Below are positions 32,718-41,258 of a DNA stretch of 63,901 bases, one piece after another. The DNA is taken from positions 1 through 63,901 of the forward strand of contig JAKSDO010000271.1 of the NCBI GenBank assembly GCA_022360055.1, read 5' to 3'. The translations under genes were made by a program, and so were the position numbers. The stretch's first letter is position 1. Each line of letters starts with the position of its first letter. This DNA comes from Cytophagales bacterium. GTDB taxonomy: Bacteria; Bacteroidota; Bacteroidia; Cytophagales; Cyclobacteriaceae. The notes under the pieces were generated by a model that was given only the letters and a program-made list of their open reading frames with translations, ran no database searches and was not told where the DNA came from.

Positions 32718-33332
32718 ATGAATGAAATACAGGATAACAAACATCATATATTGGCGACGGCCTTCAAGCTTTTCTTTCAAAAGGGGTATAAAGAAGTTAC
32801 GATGAGTGAGCTTGTAAAGGAAAGCGGACTATCCAAAGGCGCGTTTTATCATTATTTCAGCAGCAAAGAGGAATTGTACAATCACTCGATGGAGATGTTT
32901 ATGAGCCATTATTTATCTAATTTCTCGATCGATTACGATGAATCTCAAACGCTGAGAAATAACTTAAAAAGACTTTATAATCAGTTTTCCCCAATTACGG
33001 ATCAAATGAATACCTCGACCCAGGAAGCGGCAGAGGCCTTAAGTAATTATTTGATTTTTCTTCAAAACCTAATGCGCAAGGAAGCGTGGAGGACAAAAAT
33101 GGAGGTGTATAACAGGAATTTTACCGATGAGTTTACCAGGTGGATCAAATTGGCCCAGACAAGGGGTGAGATCATGAAAGCGCTGGACCCGCTTTTATTG
33201 GCGAAACATTTTACAAGCTTAATGAAGGGCGTTGGCGTCTTGCATACTTTTGTCGATAGCAGTGAACCGGTGCAGGTGACCTTTGGAAAGCTGGTGGATC
33301 AGTTTTTCGACGTAATAGAAATCAAAGATTAA
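32718..33332 (+). CDS. TetR family transcriptional regulator (first of two)
   Basis: A 204-residue repressor. The N-terminal helix-turn-helix is clear: ILATAFKLFFQKGYKEVTMS, ELVKESGLSKGAFYHYFSSK, EELYNHSME. The C-terminal ligand-binding half is all helical with no recognisable ligand signature. I chose the ATG at 32718, where the DNA-binding domain begins; a longer frame upstream runs through the promoter. No target gene lies directly downstream other than a second TetR gene 101 bases later, so it may regulate itself and distant genes. Confidence 0.88.
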   Translation: MNEIQDNKHHILATAFKLFFQKGYKEVTMSELVKESGLSKGAFYHYFSSKEELYNHSMEMFMSHYLSNFSIDYDESQTLRNNLKRLYNQFSPITDQMNTSTQEAAEALSNYLIFLQNLMRKEAWRTKMEVYNRNFTDEFTRWIKLAQTRGEIMKALDPLLLAKHFTSLMKGVGVLHTFVDSSEPVQVTFGKLVDQFFDVIEIKD

Positions 33333-33379: not shown

Positions 33380-33425
33380 TTGTTTTTTTCCAATACGTAC
33401 AGTATATTGACTGACCGTTCAGTCA
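33380..33425 (+). promoter_or_regulatory. Promoter with overlapping TetR operator
   Basis: TTG at 33380-33382 and TATATTGA at 33403-33410 (spacing 20) give a plausible Bacteroidota promoter. Over it lies TGACTGACCGTTCAGTCA (33408-33425), with 7-bp perfect arms TGACTGA/TCAGTCA, ending eight bases before the ATG of the second TetR gene. It is the likely autoregulatory operator for the whole export operon downstream. Confidence 0.65.
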
Positions 33426-33433
33426 TAAAAAAT

Positions 33434-34012
33434 ATGAGCCCCAGAAGTCAGAAACAAATTGAGCAGATAAGATCACAAAGCATCAAAAAGATTCTTGATG
33501 CTGCCTTCGAACTCATAGCAAAGCATGGCTATGAGGCAACCAGTATTTCACAGATTGCAAAGTCCGCAGGTGTATCTAAAGGGCTGATGTACAATTATTT
33601 TGACAGCAAGGAAGATCTCCTGAAGGAGCTTATAAATAATGCATTAGCCGAAGGTGACAGGCTAATGAAAGAGGCCATATCCGCGGATCCTTCCGAAACC
33701 TTAAAGAATATCTTTGTATGGTTTTTCAATGAATTGAGGAAGCACCCTAAACAATGGAGACTAATCACTGAGCTGATGTTGAAAATCGACAAGTTTGAAT
33801 TTGTGTCGGAGGTTGCGAAAAGAAAAATGGGGGACTACGTGGTTTTCATTGCCGGGCTTCTGGAGGAGATCGGATTTCCGAACCCAAAAGAGGAAGCACA
33901 ATTAATTTCGGGACTTTTTGACGGCATTGGAATACAATACCTGGTAGTACATCAGGACTACCCATTGGATGAAATGGAGACATATCTAATTAATAAATAC
34001 TGTAATTACTAA
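33434..34012 (+). CDS. TetR family regulator of the LolA/ABC operon (second of two)
   Basis: A 192-residue repressor with the TetR DNA-binding domain: ILDAAFELIAKHGYEATSIS, QIAKSAGVSKGLMYNYFDSK. The C-terminal half is helical. A near-perfect 18-base palindrome lies just upstream of the ATG at 33434, over the promoter. The gene is followed 15 bases later by a LolA-like protein gene and then an ABC exporter, so it is most likely the local repressor, released by a small, perhaps lipophilic, ligand; the ligand is unknown. The longer frame starting at 33380 runs through the operator and is rejected. Confidence 0.9.
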   Translation: MSPRSQKQIEQIRSQSIKKILDAAFELIAKHGYEATSISQIAKSAGVSKGLMYNYFDSKEDLLKELINNALAEGDRLMKEAISADPSETLKNIFVWFFNELRKHPKQWRLITELMLKIDKFEFVSEVAKRKMGDYVVFIAGLLEEIGFPNPKEEAQLISGLFDGIGIQYLVVHQDYPLDEMETYLINKYCNY

Positions 34013-34027
34013 AGCAGACGGCTGATT

Positions 34028-34822
34028 ATGAAAAAAAGAAAAATTGATTTTTTGTTAGACAACTTGCTGAAAAGGACAGCGGGAAAATTGCTCTTGTGTT
34101 TTGGATTCTGGGTGGTACCGGTTCTGGTACAAGGGCAAAATGCCAAAGAGATCGTGATGAGGATGGATAAAAAATGGCGGGGAGACTACGTGACGCAGGA
34201 AATGACCATGACGATCATAAGGCCGACCTGGCAGCGCAGCATTTCCATGAAAACCTGGGGCAGAGGAATGGATTATTCCATGGTCTATATTACTGCTCCG
34301 GCAAAGGAAAAGGGCCAGGTTTTTATGAAACGGAACAAAGAGATGTGGAACTGGGTGCCCTCAATCGACCGCATGATCAAATTGCCCCCCTCTATGATGA
34401 TGCAGTCCTGGATGGGGTCCGATTTTACCAATGACGACCTGATCCGGGAATCGTCGGTGGTGCGTGATTATGTGCATTCGATCATAGGAGCGGAAGAAAT
34501 ACTCGGACGGATGTGTTATAAGATCAAATTGATCCCGAAACAGGAAGCCGCTGTCGTCTGGGGAAAGGTTATACTGTGGATCACAAAGGAAGACGATCTG
34601 CAATTGAAAATTGAATTTTACGACGAGGATGAATATCTCGTAAATACCCAGTTATTGTCCGATATCAGGGAAATGGGAGGCAGGGTGATCCCGTGTAAAC
34701 TCGAAATGATCCCTGCCGATGAGGAAGGTAAAAAAACGGTGATTGACATCACTTCCGCCGATTATAGGACCGAGGTGAAAGAATCCTTTTTTTCTCAGCA
34801 GAATATGAAACGGATCAGGTAA
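34028..34822 (+). CDS. LolA-like outer membrane lipoprotein-sorting protein (COG2834-type)
   Basis: A 264-residue exported protein; signal peptide or anchor LLLCFGFWVVPVLVQGQ. The mature part matches the LolA-like superfamily: AKEIVMRMDKKWRGDYVTQE, MYSMVY-type strand seen as DYSMVYITAPAKEKGQVFMK, then MWNWVPSIDRMIKLPPSMMM with WMGSDFTNDDL, a hallmark of the COG2834 branch. LolA-fold proteins carry lipids or lipoproteins in a half-barrel across the periplasm. Its place between the TetR gene and two FtsX-type permeases suggests it receives cargo from the ABC transporter. Cargo unknown. Distinct from housekeeping LolA, which normally stands alone. Confidence 0.85.
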   Translation: MKKRKIDFLLDNLLKRTAGKLLLCFGFWVVPVLVQGQNAKEIVMRMDKKWRGDYVTQEMTMTIIRPTWQRSISMKTWGRGMDYSMVYITAPAKEKGQVFMKRNKEMWNWVPSIDRMIKLPPSMMMQSWMGSDFTNDDLIRESSVVRDYVHSIIGAEEILGRMCYKIKLIPKQEAAVVWGKVILWITKEDDLQLKIEFYDEDEYLVNTQLLSDIREMGGRVIPCKLEMIPADEEGKKTVIDITSADYRTEVKESFFSQQNMKRIR

Positions 34823-34945
34823 AAACCCATGGGAGCCAAGGCTGTTATAGAGCATGTCCGCGAAGAACGGAAAATGTCGACTTCATTCAAGAATAAGCTT
34901 TAGCCCATCTGTTTTTATCTATTATCTTTTTTTAAACACAATAAC

Positions 34946-36166
34946 ATGAAATCTAATATTCTATTGGCGTGGCGAAACTTGTGGCGAAACAAACGCAGAA
35001 CGCTCATCACGGTAGCCTCCGTATTTTTTGGTGTATTGCTGTCTACTTTGATGACCTCAATGCAGGAAGGCTCTTACAGCTCCATGATCGACAATATCGT
35101 CAAATTTTATTCGGGCTACATCCAGATTCAGCACGAAGCGTACTGGGACAATAAAACGATTAACAACACGATGACGCCAACCGGTGAGTTGTTTGAATTA
35201 GCCTCATCCGTTCGGGAAGTTACGCATACGACCACAAGGCTTGAGTCTTTTGCGCTCGCTTCATCGGAAACACTGACCAGGGGATCGCTGGTCATTGGGA
35301 TTGATCCCGATAAAGAAAACAAGATCACCGAATTGACCAAATGGGTGATAGACGGGACGTATTTCCGGCCCGGGGATGACGGGGTCTTGATTGGATCCGA
35401 ATTGGCAAGGTACCTGAAAATCGAGGTTGGAGATACCCTGGTCATGATTGGCGCCGGCTATCACGGGGTGAGTGCTGCGGGCAAATATCCGGTACGCGGA
35501 ATATTGAAGTTTCCGAATCCCGAGTTAAACAAGCAAACGGTTTACATGGAGCTCTCCAATTGTCAGAACTTTTTCTCGGCAGAAAATCTTGTCTCTTCCA
35601 TGATCATTATGGTAGACGATCAGTATGATCTGAAACCTGCAATGAAGGAATTAAAAGCCCAGGTCAAATCCCCGTATACGGTAATGTCCTGGGATGAAAT
35701 GCATCCGGAACTGCTTCAGATGGTGGAAGGAGACCGGGCCGGCGGCACGGTGATAAAAGCAATTCTCTACATCCTGATCGGCTTCGGGATATTTGGCACC
35801 GTAATGATGATGGTGGCCGAGCGCACCCGCGAAATGGGAGTGATGGTAGCGATCGGTATGCAGAAGATCAAGTTGGCCGGAATTCTATTTTTTGAGACGG
35901 TATTCATCGGTTTGATCGGCGTTCTGGCAGGGTTTGCCGGAAGCATCCCCCTGATTACCTGGTTCTACACTAATCCGGTAAAACTTTCGGGGAACGTTGC
36001 CGACACCATGATCGAAATGGGACTTGATCCCTACATGTATTTTTCCTGGTTGCCCTCGGTGTTTTACAACCAGGTGATTACGGTATTTGTTATGACGGCA
36101 ATTGTCGCAATATACCCGCTGTTTATGGCGGTCCGGCTAAAAGTCCATTTGGCGCTGAGAGCCTAA
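34946..36166 (+). CDS. FtsX/MacB-type ABC permease, subunit 1
   Basis: A 406-residue inner-membrane protein of the LolCE/MacB class: an N-terminal span after LAWRNLWRNKRRTLITVAS, a large periplasmic MacB_PCD domain (about 45-270), and three C-terminal spans (AILYILIGFGIFGTVMMMVA, FFETVFIGLIGVLAGFAG and YNQVITVFVMTAIVAIYPLF). The motif ERTREMGVMVAIGMQKIKL is the conserved coupling segment. It forms a heterodimer, by inference, with the next gene. Spacing from the LolA-like gene is 123 bases with no gene or clear terminator between. The overall domain order fits mechanotransmission exporters that pull substrate from the inner membrane. Confidence 0.9.
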   Translation: MKSNILLAWRNLWRNKRRTLITVASVFFGVLLSTLMTSMQEGSYSSMIDNIVKFYSGYIQIQHEAYWDNKTINNTMTPTGELFELASSVREVTHTTTRLESFALASSETLTRGSLVIGIDPDKENKITELTKWVIDGTYFRPGDDGVLIGSELARYLKIEVGDTLVMIGAGYHGVSAAGKYPVRGILKFPNPELNKQTVYMELSNCQNFFSAENLVSSMIIMVDDQYDLKPAMKELKAQVKSPYTVMSWDEMHPELLQMVEGDRAGGTVIKAILYILIGFGIFGTVMMMVAERTREMGVMVAIGMQKIKLAGILFFETVFIGLIGVLAGFAGSIPLITWFYTNPVKLSGNVADTMIEMGLDPYMYFSWLPSVFYNQVITVFVMTAIVAIYPLFMAVRLKVHLALRA

Positions 36167-36204
36167 TTATAAAAGAACCAAGTTAAAATTTTAATTATAA
36201 GAAC

Positions 36205-37422
36205 ATGATCGTTTCACTATCCTGGAGAAATGTCTGGCGCAATAAACTTCGAAGCTCGGTGATCATTGTGGCCACTACCTTGGGTATATGCGCCGGAATT
36301 TTTTCAGCGGCATTTTATCAGGGCATGGCCGATCAAAGAATTGAAAAAGCGATTAGAACGGAGCTTTCTCATATTCAGGTCCACCGCAAAGAATTTCGAA
36401 ATTCGAATGAAATTAAGGATTATATTTCCGACGCTGACAAGCTCAACCGGAAGATAAGTCAGATCGACGGAGTAGTCGGTGTGAGCAACAGGCTGGTGAT
36501 TTTTTCTATGGTCTCTTCGGCAGAGACCGGATCCGGGGTAAAAATCGTCGGTATCGATCCGGAAAAGGAAAAACTCACTACAAATATCCACCAAAAGCTG
36601 AAGGAGGGAAGTTACTTTGAAGAAAAGCGCAGGAACCAGGTGCTGATCGGCGAAAAGCTGGCTGAAAAGCTAAAGGTAAAACTGAATTCAAAGGTTGTGA
36701 TTACGCTGCTCGATGTGGATAACAACATTACTTACGGTGCATTTCGCGTCGTAGGGATTTTTAACACGGTAAATAATGCTTTTGACGAGGCGAATATATT
36801 TGTCAGACATAACGATCTTTCAAAGTTGATCGATCTGCCTCCGGATGCATGCCACGAAATCGCTATTTATGTTTCGGACAACGATCGCGTAGAATCCGTA
36901 AAGGCCCGGGTTGAGCAAATTGCCGGTGATCTGGAAGTGATGTCATGGCTGAATCTGAGCCCTGAGATGAGCTATTTGAATGAAGCCATGGACCTGTTCA
37001 TGTACATCTTTATTATCATCATCCTTCTCGCATTGCTTTTTGGGATTATCAATACCATGCTCATGGTCGTATTGGAGCGTGTAAAGGAGATCGGGATGCT
37101 CATGGCAGTTGGCATGAACAAGATACGGATTTTCCTGATGATCTTGCTGGAAACCGTCTTTCTTTCCTTAACCGGAGGTGCAATCGGTGTAGCTGCCGGA
37201 ACGATGCTGTCGAACTATTTCGAAACGCGCCCCATAAATCTGGCGGCCTGGGCCGATGCGTACACGGACCTTGGATACGATCCGTTTGTTTATACGAGCC
37301 TGAACGTCGAATTGCTGATAAATGTAACGGTAATGGTCCTGGTGACCGGTGTGTTGGCATCCCTGTACCCGGCGTACAAGGCCCTCAGACAGGATCCTTC
37401 GGATGCACTTAGAACGGAATAA
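36205..37422 (+). CDS. FtsX/MacB-type ABC permease, subunit 2
   Basis: A 405-residue permease of the same architecture as its upstream neighbour: LSWRNVWRNKLRSSVIIVAT at the first span, a periplasmic domain of about 220 residues, and three C-terminal spans including MYIFIIIILLALLFGIINTM and the coupling motif ERVKEIGMLMAVGMNKIRI. The two permeases are related but clearly diverged, as LolC and LolE are, so they probably form a heterodimer with the ATPase encoded next. The end YPAYKALRQDPSDALRTE is the usual FtsX tail. Gap to the ATPase gene 23 bases. Confidence 0.9.
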   Translation: MIVSLSWRNVWRNKLRSSVIIVATTLGICAGIFSAAFYQGMADQRIEKAIRTELSHIQVHRKEFRNSNEIKDYISDADKLNRKISQIDGVVGVSNRLVIFSMVSSAETGSGVKIVGIDPEKEKLTTNIHQKLKEGSYFEEKRRNQVLIGEKLAEKLKVKLNSKVVITLLDVDNNITYGAFRVVGIFNTVNNAFDEANIFVRHNDLSKLIDLPPDACHEIAIYVSDNDRVESVKARVEQIAGDLEVMSWLNLSPEMSYLNEAMDLFMYIFIIIILLALLFGIINTMLMVVLERVKEIGMLMAVGMNKIRIFLMILLETVFLSLTGGAIGVAAGTMLSNYFETRPINLAAWADAYTDLGYDPFVYTSLNVELLINVTVMVLVTGVLASLYPAYKALRQDPSDALRTE

Positions 37423-37445
37423 ATAACATAAAAACAATTGGAATA

Positions 37446-38129
37446 ATGAGTATCATTAAAATAAATAATCTTTTCAAAATATACGATGGCTCTCAGATAG
37501 AGGTCAAAGCGGTCAATGGCGTTGACATCACATTTGAAGAGGGGGAATTTACAGCAATCGTAGGGCCCTCCGGCTCGGGAAAAACAACTTTTCTGAATCT
37601 CCTTGGAGGTCTTGACCGTCCGACTTCAGGAGATGTCATTGTAGATAATGTAAACGTCTGGGGACTCAGCGGAAGAAAGCTTATCGATTTCAGGCTCCAC
37701 AATATCGGTTTCGTATTCCAGGCCTACAACCTCATCCCCGTCTTGACGGCCAAAGAAAATGTGGAGTTTATCATGGAATTGCAGGGGAGGTCGAAGCAGG
37801 AGCGGTTTGAGCGCACGAAATCGTTGCTGGAAGCTGTTGGATTAGGCGACCGGTTAGACAGCCGTCCAAACAAGCTGTCCGGCGGTCAGCAGCAGCGCGT
37901 GGCCGTAGCCCGCGCTTTGGCCTCGAAGCCGAAATTTATTCTTGCCGACGAACCGACGGCAAACCTGGACTCCAGGTCGACCGAGACGCTTCTGGATATC
38001 ATGGAGACGCTGAACAGGGAAGAGAACATCACCTTCATTTTTTCGACCCACGATGCGAGGGTAATGAACAAGGCAAGGCGGATAGTTACCATGGAAGATG
38101 GAAAGATCCTGAGCGACGTGCACGTGTAA
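37446..38129 (+). CDS. ABC transporter ATP-binding protein (LolD/MacB-like)
   Basis: A 227-residue ATPase. Walker A GPSGSGKTTFLNLLGG, Q-loop VFQAYNLIPVLTA, signature LSGGQQQRVAVARAL, Walker B FILADEPTANLD and the H-loop FSTHDARVM are all intact. The GLDRPTSGDV segment and the size place it in the LolD/MacB/FtsE group, which powers FtsX-type permeases. It lies between the two permease genes and the outer-membrane barrel gene in one tight operon. Confidence 0.95.
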   Translation: MSIIKINNLFKIYDGSQIEVKAVNGVDITFEEGEFTAIVGPSGSGKTTFLNLLGGLDRPTSGDVIVDNVNVWGLSGRKLIDFRLHNIGFVFQAYNLIPVLTAKENVEFIMELQGRSKQERFERTKSLLEAVGLGDRLDSRPNKLSGGQQQRVAVARALASKPKFILADEPTANLDSRSTETLLDIMETLNREENITFIFSTHDARVMNKARRIVTMEDGKILSDVHV

Positions 38130-38147
38130 CGGTCCTTTCTGGAACAA

Positions 38148-39353
38148 ATGAAAATGATGCCAAATATATTTTTTAAGCTTCCGTCCAGGATGAAACGACT
38201 GACATGCATTGTCTTGGTGCTCAGCCATATTTCGTTTGCACAGGATGGCGGTGATTTCGATTTTAAGGGATATCTGAAATATCTTTCTTCAGCCAACTTC
38301 CAGGATGTGGATGAGCCCTGGATCACGGACCAGCTTTTGCATAATCGACTGGAATTCAGGTATTACCCAAACGAAAAATGGACGTTTGACCTCGAAATGC
38401 GGAACAGGCTGTTTTTCGGGCAGCAGGTTACGCTGCTGAGCAGCATCGATACCCTGGATTATCCGGGCTTCATTGAAGATGATGGCGGTTTTTTTGACCT
38501 GTCCCACAATTGGGCATCCGGCAAATCCTATATTTTAAATACAACGATCGACCGGTTTTTCGCGGATTATGCGGCCGGCAACTGGCAGGTACGCGCCGGA
38601 AGGCACAGGATCAACTGGGGGCAAAACCTCGTCTGGAACCCAAACGATGTTTTCAACGCCTACTCGTATTTTGATTTTGACTACGAAGAACGGCCGGGCA
38701 CGGACGCGGTGCGACTGCAGTATTTTACCGGATTTACCTCCGCTGCGGAATTTGTATATCAGCTTGGAGATCATATCGATGAAATGTCGTTTACCGGTCT
38801 GTACAAATTCAGCAAGTGGAATTATGATTTTCAGTTTCTCGGAGGACTGGTGAAGCGGGATCTGGTGATTGGAACAGGATGGTCGGGAGATATAGAAGGC
38901 GGCGGATTTCGCGGTGAATTTACCTATTTTCATGATAAGGACAGCCTGAGTGATCCCGTAGGTCAGTTGGTCGCCTCGATCTCCGGGGACTATACGTTTC
39001 CAAGCAGTCTGTACCTGCATGGATCGGTGATATACAACAGCAAGGGAGCCACGGAAAAAACAGGCGGAATTAATCCGAATGTGCTGACGGAGACCTCTGC
39101 TAAAAATCTTACGCTGGCCCGAATGAATCTATTCGGGCAGATATCTTATCAAATATCGCCCTTATGGCGGGGAGACCTTGCTTCGATCCTGAATCCCTAT
39201 GACGGATCATTCTTTGTGGGCCCCGGCGCCAGCTATTCGCTGGCCGATAATATGGAACTGCTCTTTTTCGGGCAGTTCTTTGGCGGTGATGAGGGGACGG
39301 AGTACGGCGGAATAGGGAAGCTGTTTTATTTCAGATTGAAGTGGGCGTTTTAA
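38148..39353 (+). CDS. Outer-membrane beta-barrel protein of the LolA/ABC operon
   Basis: A 401-residue protein with a signal peptide (LTCIVLVLSHISFAQ) and a body of alternating strands ending in phenylalanine (LFYFRLKWAF), typical of an outer-membrane barrel. Segments such as NRLEFRYYPNEKWTFDLEMR, VRAGRHRINWGQNLVWNPND and VFNAYSYFDFDYEERPGTDA resemble DUF1302/alginate-export-like barrels. The gene follows the ATPase by 18 bases, so it is part of the export operon and could be its outer-membrane exit or receiver. ATG 38148 is used; ATG 38190 just before the signal peptide is equally possible. Function otherwise unknown. Confidence 0.75.
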   Translation: MKMMPNIFFKLPSRMKRLTCIVLVLSHISFAQDGGDFDFKGYLKYLSSANFQDVDEPWITDQLLHNRLEFRYYPNEKWTFDLEMRNRLFFGQQVTLLSSIDTLDYPGFIEDDGGFFDLSHNWASGKSYILNTTIDRFFADYAAGNWQVRAGRHRINWGQNLVWNPNDVFNAYSYFDFDYEERPGTDAVRLQYFTGFTSAAEFVYQLGDHIDEMSFTGLYKFSKWNYDFQFLGGLVKRDLVIGTGWSGDIEGGGFRGEFTYFHDKDSLSDPVGQLVASISGDYTFPSSLYLHGSVIYNSKGATEKTGGINPNVLTETSAKNLTLARMNLFGQISYQISPLWRGDLASILNPYDGSFFVGPGASYSLADNMELLFFGQFFGGDEGTEYGGIGKLFYFRLKWAF

Positions 39354-39491
39354 GGAGCTTCAGGATTGTCGCTCCGATATTAATCGCCAACACATAGGAG
39401 CCATACGGATGGGCAGGAATTATATGGAATCCATGGAAAGATCAAATGGATATGCTCGTGCGGTAGTTCAGGTTTATCCGTATGGTTTTAT

Positions 39492-39510
39492 CGGGCTTGC
39501 CTCAAGCCCG
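39492..39510. other. Hairpin upstream of the diacylglycerol-kinase-like gene
   Basis: CGGGCTTG-CCT-CAAGCCCG, an 8-bp perfect stem, 139 bases after the barrel-gene stop. It may be the terminator of the ABC operon, though no T-run follows. Confidence 0.45.
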
Positions 39511-39574
39511 TATCCAATTCGTATTAAATCATCAAATTATTAGCTATTTTAGGCGAATCAAAAACTTTATTTGG

Positions 39575-40462
39575 TTGTCTGAATATCGAAACATCCTTAT
39601 TGTGATAAATCCGGCGGCGGGGAAATCTTCCTATGAGAAAAGACTATCCTTACTGGAACAAAGACTGACGGAAGAGGGAATAAATCGCGAAAAGTTTTTC
39701 ACGGAACAAGAGGCATCCGGCAAACTCAAATCATTGATCAAAAATACCAAAACCATCAGCGATGTCTTCGTGATGGGAGGAGACGGGACCTTGAATTATG
39801 TGGTCAATGAGATCCGGGAATTGAACTTGCCGGTAAGTATTGTAAGTAACGGAACGGGAAACGATTCCGTAAAGTCGCTCCACGGAGAAATGAATTTTGA
39901 GCGGCAGGTGGACATCGCTGTTCGCGGACGCGTCAAGGCGTTTGATCTTGGAAAATGCAACGGGCGTTATTTTGTGAATGGCGTGGGGATCGGCTTTGAC
40001 GGAGCGGTTGTCCGGGAAATGGTGAAGCGCGGGAATAAGCAAGGCCGGCACATCGATTACCTGCTGACCGTTTTGCGCATCGTGGCCGGATTTAAAGAGC
40101 GGGAGCTCCGGTTTACCCTGGATGGAAAATCATTCGGTAAAAAGATCCTTCTTATGACCATTTCGAACGGGACAACTTTTGGCGGGGGATTTATCATCAA
40201 CCCATTTGCAAAAGCAAATGACGGCAAGCTGGATGTTTGCATTTTTAATGAGGTTGGTCTGCTGAAACGATTCTGGCACTTGCCAAAGCTGAAAAACGGC
40301 ACACATCATAAGATCAGGGAAACGGAATTCCACCTGGCAAATAAAGTCGAAATTGAAGCTACCGATGAATTGGTCGCGCATTTGGACGGCGAATTCATCG
40401 GTCATCCGCCATTTCGAATAAGCATCGAAAAAGATGCGCTTCAGGTCAGGACGCCGGCTTAG
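39575..40462 (+). CDS. Diacylglycerol kinase family lipid kinase (DagK/YegS-like)
   Basis: A lipid kinase of about 295 residues. NILIVINPAAGKSSYEK begins the catalytic domain; the nucleotide motif is VMGGDGTLNYVVNEI, followed by VSNGTGNDSVKSL (with GTGND) and FVNGVGIGFDGAVVREM. The C-terminal lobe has TISNGTTFGGGFIINPFAKA and DGKLDVCIF. Members phosphorylate diacylglycerol, phosphatidylglycerol or other lipids. The frame is open from an ATG at 39482, but that region holds a hairpin and looks non-coding, so TTG 39575 is the preferred start. It converges on the Lgt-like gene, with the 3' ends overlapping by 17 bases. Confidence 0.88.
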   Translation: MSEYRNILIVINPAAGKSSYEKRLSLLEQRLTEEGINREKFFTEQEASGKLKSLIKNTKTISDVFVMGGDGTLNYVVNEIRELNLPVSIVSNGTGNDSVKSLHGEMNFERQVDIAVRGRVKAFDLGKCNGRYFVNGVGIGFDGAVVREMVKRGNKQGRHIDYLLTVLRIVAGFKERELRFTLDGKSFGKKILLMTISNGTTFGGGFIINPFAKANDGKLDVCIFNEVGLLKRFWHLPKLKNGTHHKIRETEFHLANKVEIEATDELVAHLDGEFIGHPPFRISIEKDALQVRTPA

Positions 40463-41258
40463 ATTTTTTCAACAGCTTTAGATAGATCACTAAGCCGGCA
40501 GTAAATACGGCTATGGATATAAATTGGGAATTCGACAGGATATCTTCGATTATAAATCCACGATCCAGGTCTCCTCTGAACATTTCGAGTATGGACCTGG
40601 CGATCGCGTACAGCATAAGATACAACATAAACAGTTGCCCGTCGAATTGTTTTCTTGTGCTCATAAAAATGATTACCGCCAGAATTGAAAAAATTGCCAG
40701 CGAACTATAGAGTTGTATGGGATGCAGGGGGGTATGCAATGGCTCGGCCACACAGGAGGCGTGCGTGAAAGTAACCGAAAACAAGCCCTCGTGAGGCTTG
40801 CCGTAACAGCATCCGGCCATAAAACATCCTATTCTTCCGAAACCGTGCACAATACAGGTTGTCCCTGCCATGATATCCAGCATCGGCAGCACGGGAAGGT
40901 GGTGAATCCTGAAAAAAACGAGCATGGTCGGGATGGCAAACAGGAGGGAGCCATAAAATACGAAACCGGAATTAAACCCCTCAATAAGCCTGGACGGCTC
41001 ACTGAGATAGAGTTTTGGGTTTTCAAAGATTATGAATAATTTACCGCCGATTACAGAGGCGATAATGATCAGAACGATCAGCGTCCGGATGGTTTCGGTG
41101 CTTATCCCAAACTGCCTTTTTGACTGGTAGGCGGTATACAAATATCCTGCAATGGCGCCGCATGCGATAAAAAATCCGTATGAATAAACGGTTATCGTGT
41201 CCGGCAGCAGGCTTTGTAAAAATCCGGGTGTCCGTATCTCGAAAAATATGGGATGCAT
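40446..41258 (-). CDS. Lgt-like prolipoprotein diacylglyceryl transferase family protein
   Basis: A 270-residue polytopic membrane protein of the Lgt family, with about seven spans. The signature GFGRIGCFMAGCCYGKP (Arg142) is present, and so is the late segment RSILEMFRGDLDRG. However, where Escherichia coli Lgt has the essential His103 (in FHGG), this protein has Tyr102 (VFYGSL). So it may be a paralogue with an altered reaction and not the housekeeping enzyme that attaches diacylglycerol to the lipobox cysteine. It lies four bases after the TrkH-like gene on the same strand, in an operon with the TrkH-like channel and the RfaE1-like kinase. Confidence 0.82.
   Translation of the reverse strand: MHPIFFEIRTPGFLQSLLPDTITVYSYGFFIACGAIAGYLYTAYQSKRQFGISTETIRTLIVLIIIASVIGGKLFIIFENPKLYLSEPSRLIEGFNSGFVFYGSLLFAIPTMLVFFRIHHLPVLPMLDIMAGTTCIVHGFGRIGCFMAGCCYGKPHEGLFSVTFTHASCVAEPLHTPLHPIQLYSSLAIFSILAVIIFMSTRKQFDGQLFMLYLMLYAIARSILEMFRGDLDRGFIIEDILSNSQFISIAVFTAGLVIYLKLLKKSKPAS

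Follow-up and report, generated by a model that had tools for sequence, protein, structure and literature searches.

A conserved TetR-linked gene set encoding a LolA-like carrier, two LolC/E-like permeases, an ATPase and an outer-membrane barrel: a candidate envelope exporter in Bacteroidota

A 63,901-nucleotide stretch of DNA from a Cytophagales bacterium (contig JAKSDO010000271.1 of assembly GCA_022360055.1; hereafter the window) contains a cassette of six genes at 33434-39353, encoding a TetR-family repressor, a LolA-like carrier of family PF17131, two LolC/E-like permeases (PermA and PermB), a LolD-like ATPase and an outer-membrane barrel. All six open reading frames (ORFs) lie on the forward strand, as a first-pass annotation of the window had described, with gaps of 15, 123, 38, 23 and 18 bases in that order, and five of the proteins have Pfam matches. 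The genes form a real conserved unit, of which TetR is only a frequent member. Computation supports this unit, its operator and the kinship of its carrier, and structural models support the predicted folds of PermA and the barrel. We consider it reasonably probable that the operon encodes an inducible, ATP-driven system that exports a lipid or a small hydrophobic compound across the envelope, for which we infer the cargo, the direction and the ligand of the repressor.

The first-pass annotation had named a gene-neighbourhood search as the test that could overturn the idea of a system, and the idea survived it. The five core genes (carrier, PermA, PermB, ATPase and barrel), scored downstream of the carrier on the same strand, were complete in 104 of the 110 loci with enough sequence. 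Profile hidden Markov models were used to analyse 146 loci: 26 found through the barrel within the order, 80 found through the carrier on named contigs (the best 80 of 581 relatives) and 40 picked from barrel matches across the phylum (20 low-scoring and 20 higher). Loci with a carrier match were counted as having room when 6.5 kb or more lay downstream; 30 of the 146 loci had less than 6.5 kb downstream, including L203 and L204, two loci with an MMPL pump. The complete core was found in 23/23 order loci, in 49/55 carrier-found loci and in 14/14 and 18/18 of the phylum loci (together 32/32). Because the barrel-found sets necessarily include a barrel, the unbiased evidence for this gene comes from the carrier-found set. 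With L205 and L221, which fell below the room limit, all five genes were present in 34 of the 40 phylum loci. Among the six incomplete loci, L084 had the carrier and PermA only, PermA was undetected in L136 and the barrel was undetected in L093, L095, L103 and L121. No carrier was detected in six of the 146 loci: L056 and L065 are cut by contig ends, the contig of L217 ends inside PermA, L201 has PermA, PermB and ATPase at the contig start with the barrel several genes further on, and L199 and L200 are considered below. The five core proteins co-diverged across 112 loci (pairwise-distance r of 0.69-0.88, permuted maxima of 0.08-0.16, shared species ancestry not being corrected for).

Barrel homologues were found in 27 of 148 genomes of the order and in 93 of 395 genomes of the phylum, the host genome being included in both counts. 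Named isolates of Draconibacterium, Maribellus and Echinicola carry the complete cassette, and record titles among the carrier matches listed also include Chlorobiota, Melioribacteraceae, Fibrobacteres and Delongbacteria. A complete cassette is likewise present in L227 (NZ_CP050465.1), a record labelled Vibrio campbellii whose carrier groups among Bacteroidota in a carrier tree; transfer or a mislabelled record could explain this.

The tetR gene (33434-34012; Pfam TetR_N, 5.7e-21) was called by the first-pass annotation from 33380, which is merely the first TTG. Most of the 21 TetR homologues listed have MSPR(T/S) or a similar motif at or near their N-terminus, indicating that the protein most likely begins at ATG 33434 and that the putative operator TGACTGACCGTTCAGTCA (33408-33425, strand not assigned) lies outside the gene, just 5' of the start codon. 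Eight of the nine pairs of positions in this site are palindromic. A dyad TGAC-N8..12-GTCA was found in 50 of 81 upstream regions of same-strand TetR genes, those of L203 and L204 included, where mononucleotide shuffles give an expectation of 1.1. With one mismatch allowed, the full operator pattern has a single site in the host genome, the cassette's own, and no further site elsewhere in it. An operator over the promoter, as had been proposed, is thus borne out; a TetR gene on either strand within 900 bases upstream was found in only 83 of the 130 loci with upstream room. A second TetR-family gene lies immediately upstream (32718-33332, forward strand), preceded by the stretch ACCAAACGGTCGGT; it was not seen beside the cassette in the two nearest relatives (L068 and L069).

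A profile of 18 TetR proteins had its best solved matches in the FadR structures 3whb, 1vi0, 5gpa and 5gp9 (E 1.3e-23 to 5.4e-22). The top match, 3whb (E 1.3e-23), spans positions 16-188, nearly the full length, and an unnamed TetR, 6azh, follows closely (E 6.3e-22). 3WHB is FadR of B. subtilis and 5GP9 that of B. halodurans (PMC6449355). The TetR also matches AcrR and MtrR models and stands beside an ABC (ATP-binding cassette) exporter, which, like the patchy distribution of the barrel across the phylum (93/395), would suit a detoxifying pump that expels membrane-active drugs or comparable foreign substances and is switched on by a TetR able to bind many drugs. This alternative overlaps the exporter favoured here, the chief distinction being the foreign origin of its cargo. 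The prominence of FadR among the profile matches speaks against it, as does the lack of a Pfam match to a MacA-like adaptor or TolC in the six proteins and six flanking ORFs, a scan that a distant adaptor could escape. The scan likewise gave no match to MMPL or tetratricopeptide repeat (TPR) proteins. MacAB-TolC shares the type VII ABC exporter fold, but the ATPase and permeases of the cassette are separate proteins rather than a MacB fusion. We regard a detoxifying pump as unlikely.

PermA (34946-36166) and PermB (36205-37422) both match Pfam MacB_PCD and FtsX. In a Foldseek search with the PermA model, ranks 1-8 were LolE and LolC chains (query TM up to 0.72), suggesting a type VII ABC permease of LolC/LolE-like fold; PermB, a second diverged permease, is LolC/LolE-like by sequence. 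The ATPase (37446-38129; Pfam ABC_tran, 8.5e-34) has a Walker A motif GPSGSGKTT and a signature LSGGQQQR, both identified by eye. It scored 224.3 bits, under the LolD cut-off of 307.75, and its best matches tie between the LolD and DevA models. Against the lolCE model TIGR02212 (cut-off 362.45), the two permeases scored about 115 and 146-147 bits; the best gene of the genome reached 209.4 bits, so that the cut-off does not discriminate here. Two other LolC/E-like genes of the host genome outscore PermB and PermA on this model (209 and 176 bits), and its sole PF03548 LolA match lies on another contig (C130). These genes presumably make up the housekeeping Lol pathway, and they agree with the earlier proposal that the cassette is separate from it. 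Compared with LolCDE-LolA-LolB, the cassette likewise combines two LolC/E-like permeases, a LolD-like ATPase and a carrier of the LolA superfamily. It differs in its PF17131 carrier, in the channel-type barrel that replaces LolB (no Pfam match to LolB was found among the six proteins) and in its frequent TetR switch, in addition to the ATPase score and the other Lol-like genes described above. Most PermA homologues share a GQGYxGxxAAGKY motif, which in the window reads GAGYHGVSAAGKY. We considered this motif as a LolC hook; it sits in a hairpin aligned with LolF, and a hook was not demonstrated. An extra copy of PermA occurs within the cassette in L053, L054, L086, L090, L108 and L137, one copy in L054 being split into two ORFs; a double count in L226 reflects one PermA read as two overlapping ORFs.

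The carrier (34028-34822; PF17131, 2.9e-54) scored 184 bits against a gathering score of 30 and is thus a member of the PF17131 family, as are 17/17 aligned homologues. PF17131 alone passed its cut-off, and LolA (PF03548) was not among the Pfam matches at E up to 0.01. By eye, the N-terminus is signal-like and has no lipobox. The host genome holds a second PF17131 gene on contig C214 (L066, 273-2363), which closely matches LolA3 of P. gingivalis (E 1.2e-122) and is followed by a DUF1302 barrel (PF06980, 3.3e-14). The contig begins at this carrier-barrel pair, leaving its pump out of view. Thirty further PF17131 loci of the phylum, chosen for not lying near known barrel matches, were classified by manual reading: 6 had an MMPL pump, 9 had other ABC arrangements, 1 was a cassette cut before the barrel (L235), 12 were solitary and 2 were unclear (L260 and L261). 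A quick tree was built from 64 selected carriers and has some long branches. In it, all 36 labelled as cassette, the cut L235 included, formed one group (SH-aLRT 100), and MMPL-linked carriers, L066 being labelled as such with its pump unseen, formed a separate one; the four labels need 3 changes on this tree. Loci L256-L259, from genomes of family f37, show another ABC arrangement with a LolA-like protein and a weakly matching barrel (18-21 bits); no ATPase was present within the stretch fetched for L256. Matches to PF17131 were also found in archaea among the control genomes, such as Methanocaldococcus and Haloferax, which to our knowledge have no comparable outer membrane.

The barrel (38148-39353) was modelled with about 18 strands and a porin/OprD/AlgE-like fold that appears channel-like and unlike LolB. 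The DUF1302-like character ascribed to it earlier is not visible in the window protein, which has no Pfam match. Among 18 aligned homologues, 6 match DUF1302 with E values no higher than 1 (best 8.9e-5), and the barrel is probably a distant relative of that family. No Omp85 match was found in the Pfam scan or in the 50 structure-search rows shown, lists that may miss one. Several porin families match the barrel within a few Z units, and we therefore placed it in none. By alignment of profiles (hhalign), its family matches the barrels of L203 and L204 over 358 columns (4.7e-22) and the host's own DUF1302 barrel on C214 over 68 columns only (1.2e-6).

These carrier and barrel families are not confined to the ABC cassette, a finding that partly touches the condition under which the first-pass annotation would have given up its system, namely well-described unrelated partners. 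In L203 and L204, from two other genomes, genes for TetR, the LolA-like protein and the barrel are followed by an MMPL pump. In Prevotella nigrescens, a plasmid table annotates MMPL, an outer membrane lipoprotein-sorting protein and DUF1302 consecutively. Operons combining TetR, MMPL and a lipoprotein-sorting protein are described as strongly induced in P. gingivalis and P. intermedia when iron is scarce, and the fourth gene of P. gingivalis PG1175-81 is termed only hypothetical there (PMC10434189). These published loci share with the cassette a TetR and a PF17131-type carrier (PMC10434189) and, where annotated, distant kin of its barrel. They differ in having a pump of the resistance-nodulation-division (RND)/MMPL type in place of two FtsX/MacB_PCD permeases with an ATPase, and their carriers group separately. 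Elsewhere, RND/MMPL pumps take the place of the ABC machine beside related carriers and barrels, so the pump appears to be an exchangeable module.

We infer a mechanism in which PermA, PermB and two copies of the ATPase would assemble as a single LolCDE-like type VII ABC machine, whose ATP-driven mechanical movement would extract a hydrophobic molecule from the inner membrane. The cargo would most likely be a lipid, a fatty acid derivative or another amphiphile rather than a lipoprotein. The LolA-like protein may shelter it through the periplasm and pass it to the barrel, from which it would enter the outer membrane or leave the cell. TetR would sit on the operator at the promoter until the cargo, or a related acyl-type ligand, frees it.

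The mycobacterial carrier LppX has a LolA-like fold, and we know of no barrel of the cassette type for the export of phthiocerol dimycocerosates (PDIM). The PDIM pathway (MmpL7, LppX and DrrABC; PMC11539658) resembles the cassette as lipid export by a pump and a carrier, a functional analogy only, and operates in a different envelope. A closer parallel is Borrelia BBJ23-29, described as a MacB/LolE-like ABC transporter with a LolA-like protein and an outer-membrane barrel and proposed to handle a non-polar ligand (PMC13078400). Compared by description, it differs in having one permease as a proposed homodimer, an Omp85-family barrel, TPR proteins and a mostly plasmid-borne location (PMC13078400). 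We found nothing specific on the present gene combination in open-access papers. The earlier description of the system as undescribed therefore stands, within these searches, for the TetR-linked ABC-LolA-barrel gene set and not for the general idea: the general design had already been proposed for Borrelia (PMC13078400), and MMPL relatives had been seen in transcriptomes.

Several observations weigh against an inducible exporter of this kind. TetR was not found in 47 of the 130 loci, and no common replacement was seen in these when genes were compared by length and first residues only. The barrel was undetected in 5 of the 55 carrier-found loci with room (L084, L093, L095, L103 and L121), and the barrel-found loci L199 and L200 have no other cassette gene nearby. 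Each of the 18 aligned TetR proteins matches both BetI and FadR models (best 5.4e-20 and 1.2e-20), and the window TetR scored 67.8 bits, far under the FadR NCBIfam cut-off of 200; an acyl-type ligand, suggested by sequence, is for these reasons a lead only. Neighbouring lipid genes are not recurrent. A lipid kinase of the diacylglycerol kinase/YegS type lies directly downstream of the barrel (39482-40462, forward strand) and had one distant match (L090) in the 146 loci. The Foldseek top rows for the barrel were other porins, so that its likeness to AlgE is one of shared fold only, and barrels with the OprD fold are known chiefly for uptake. As OprD/Occ channels are the nearest structures to the modelled barrel when ranked by VIA Z, a retrograde route can be envisaged, in which a hydrophobic nutrient or a misplaced lipid enters through the barrel and is taken by the carrier to the inner membrane. 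We know of no LolCE-like permeases acting as importers, and the type VII ABC fold has been linked to export (PMC13078400); uptake therefore seems very improbable.

Two genes downstream of the barrel lies lgt (40446-41258, reverse strand; PF01790, 1.1e-50), a gene of lipoprotein maturation that would suit a lipoprotein cargo. The cassette could then be a dedicated second Lol line, extracting a special subset of lipoproteins for carriage by the LolA-like protein, with the barrel as acceptor into or through the outer membrane. The predicted PermA fold, nearest to LolE and LolC, and the LolD/DevA tie of the ATPase are consistent with this, and lipoproteins are considered by the authors describing the comparable Borrelia cluster (PMC13078400). 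Against it stand the PF17131 rather than PF03548 carrier, the lack of a LolB match, the channel-like barrel of the model and the other Lol-like genes of the host. Kindred carriers and barrels also occur with MMPL pumps, a class known for lipids and small hydrophobic molecules, and lgt had no match in any of the 146 loci, the flanks of which are short. The presence of lgt slightly raised our estimate for a second Lol line, which we still judge improbable; the estimate for drug efflux was reduced by as much, and that for the favoured exporter is unchanged. Of the complete inner- to outer-membrane route proposed by the first-pass annotation, the conserved core is retained, and lipoprotein cargo has become less likely given the absence of LolB, the channel-like barrel and the LolA_like carrier.

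Upstream of the cassette, the window encodes a sulfatase, a DEAD helicase and the second TetR. Across the 146 loci, no conserved neighbour names a cargo; apart from TetR, CAP and NmrA, the genes seen were otherwise lineage-limited. A CAP-domain gene follows the ATPase in 13 of the loci (L070, L072-L075, L077, L079-L082, L085, L107 and L126; PF00188 tested in L070 and L074), and eukaryotic CAP proteins bind lipids. A gene for an NmrA-type NAD(P)-binding reductase lies inside the cassette in L053, L054 and L193 (Pfam for two of them). Small ORFs of the 23S_rRNA_IVP type occupy operon gaps, often between carrier and PermA, in L072, L073, L075, L081, L121, L126, L127 and L141, and also in L085 and L103 (PF05635 tested in L072 and L085).

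Beyond the window, the cassette may belong to a class of machines, widespread in Bacteroidota and their relatives and so far without a name, that secrete lipids or fatty acids across the envelope. Its members would combine a PF17131 carrier and a channel barrel with either of two interchangeable pumps, LolCDE-like ABC or RND/MMPL, and often with a FadR-like acyl sensor acting through a dedicated operator; we put this forward as a tentative possibility. Exchange of an ABC for an RND pump on related carriers and barrels would clearly illustrate modularity in envelope machines. Few systems are understood by which hydrophobic molecules cross the periplasm and exit through the outer membrane, and a compact cassette running from motor to channel, often with its own regulator and with its barrel in 93 of 395 genomes, makes the question directly testable.

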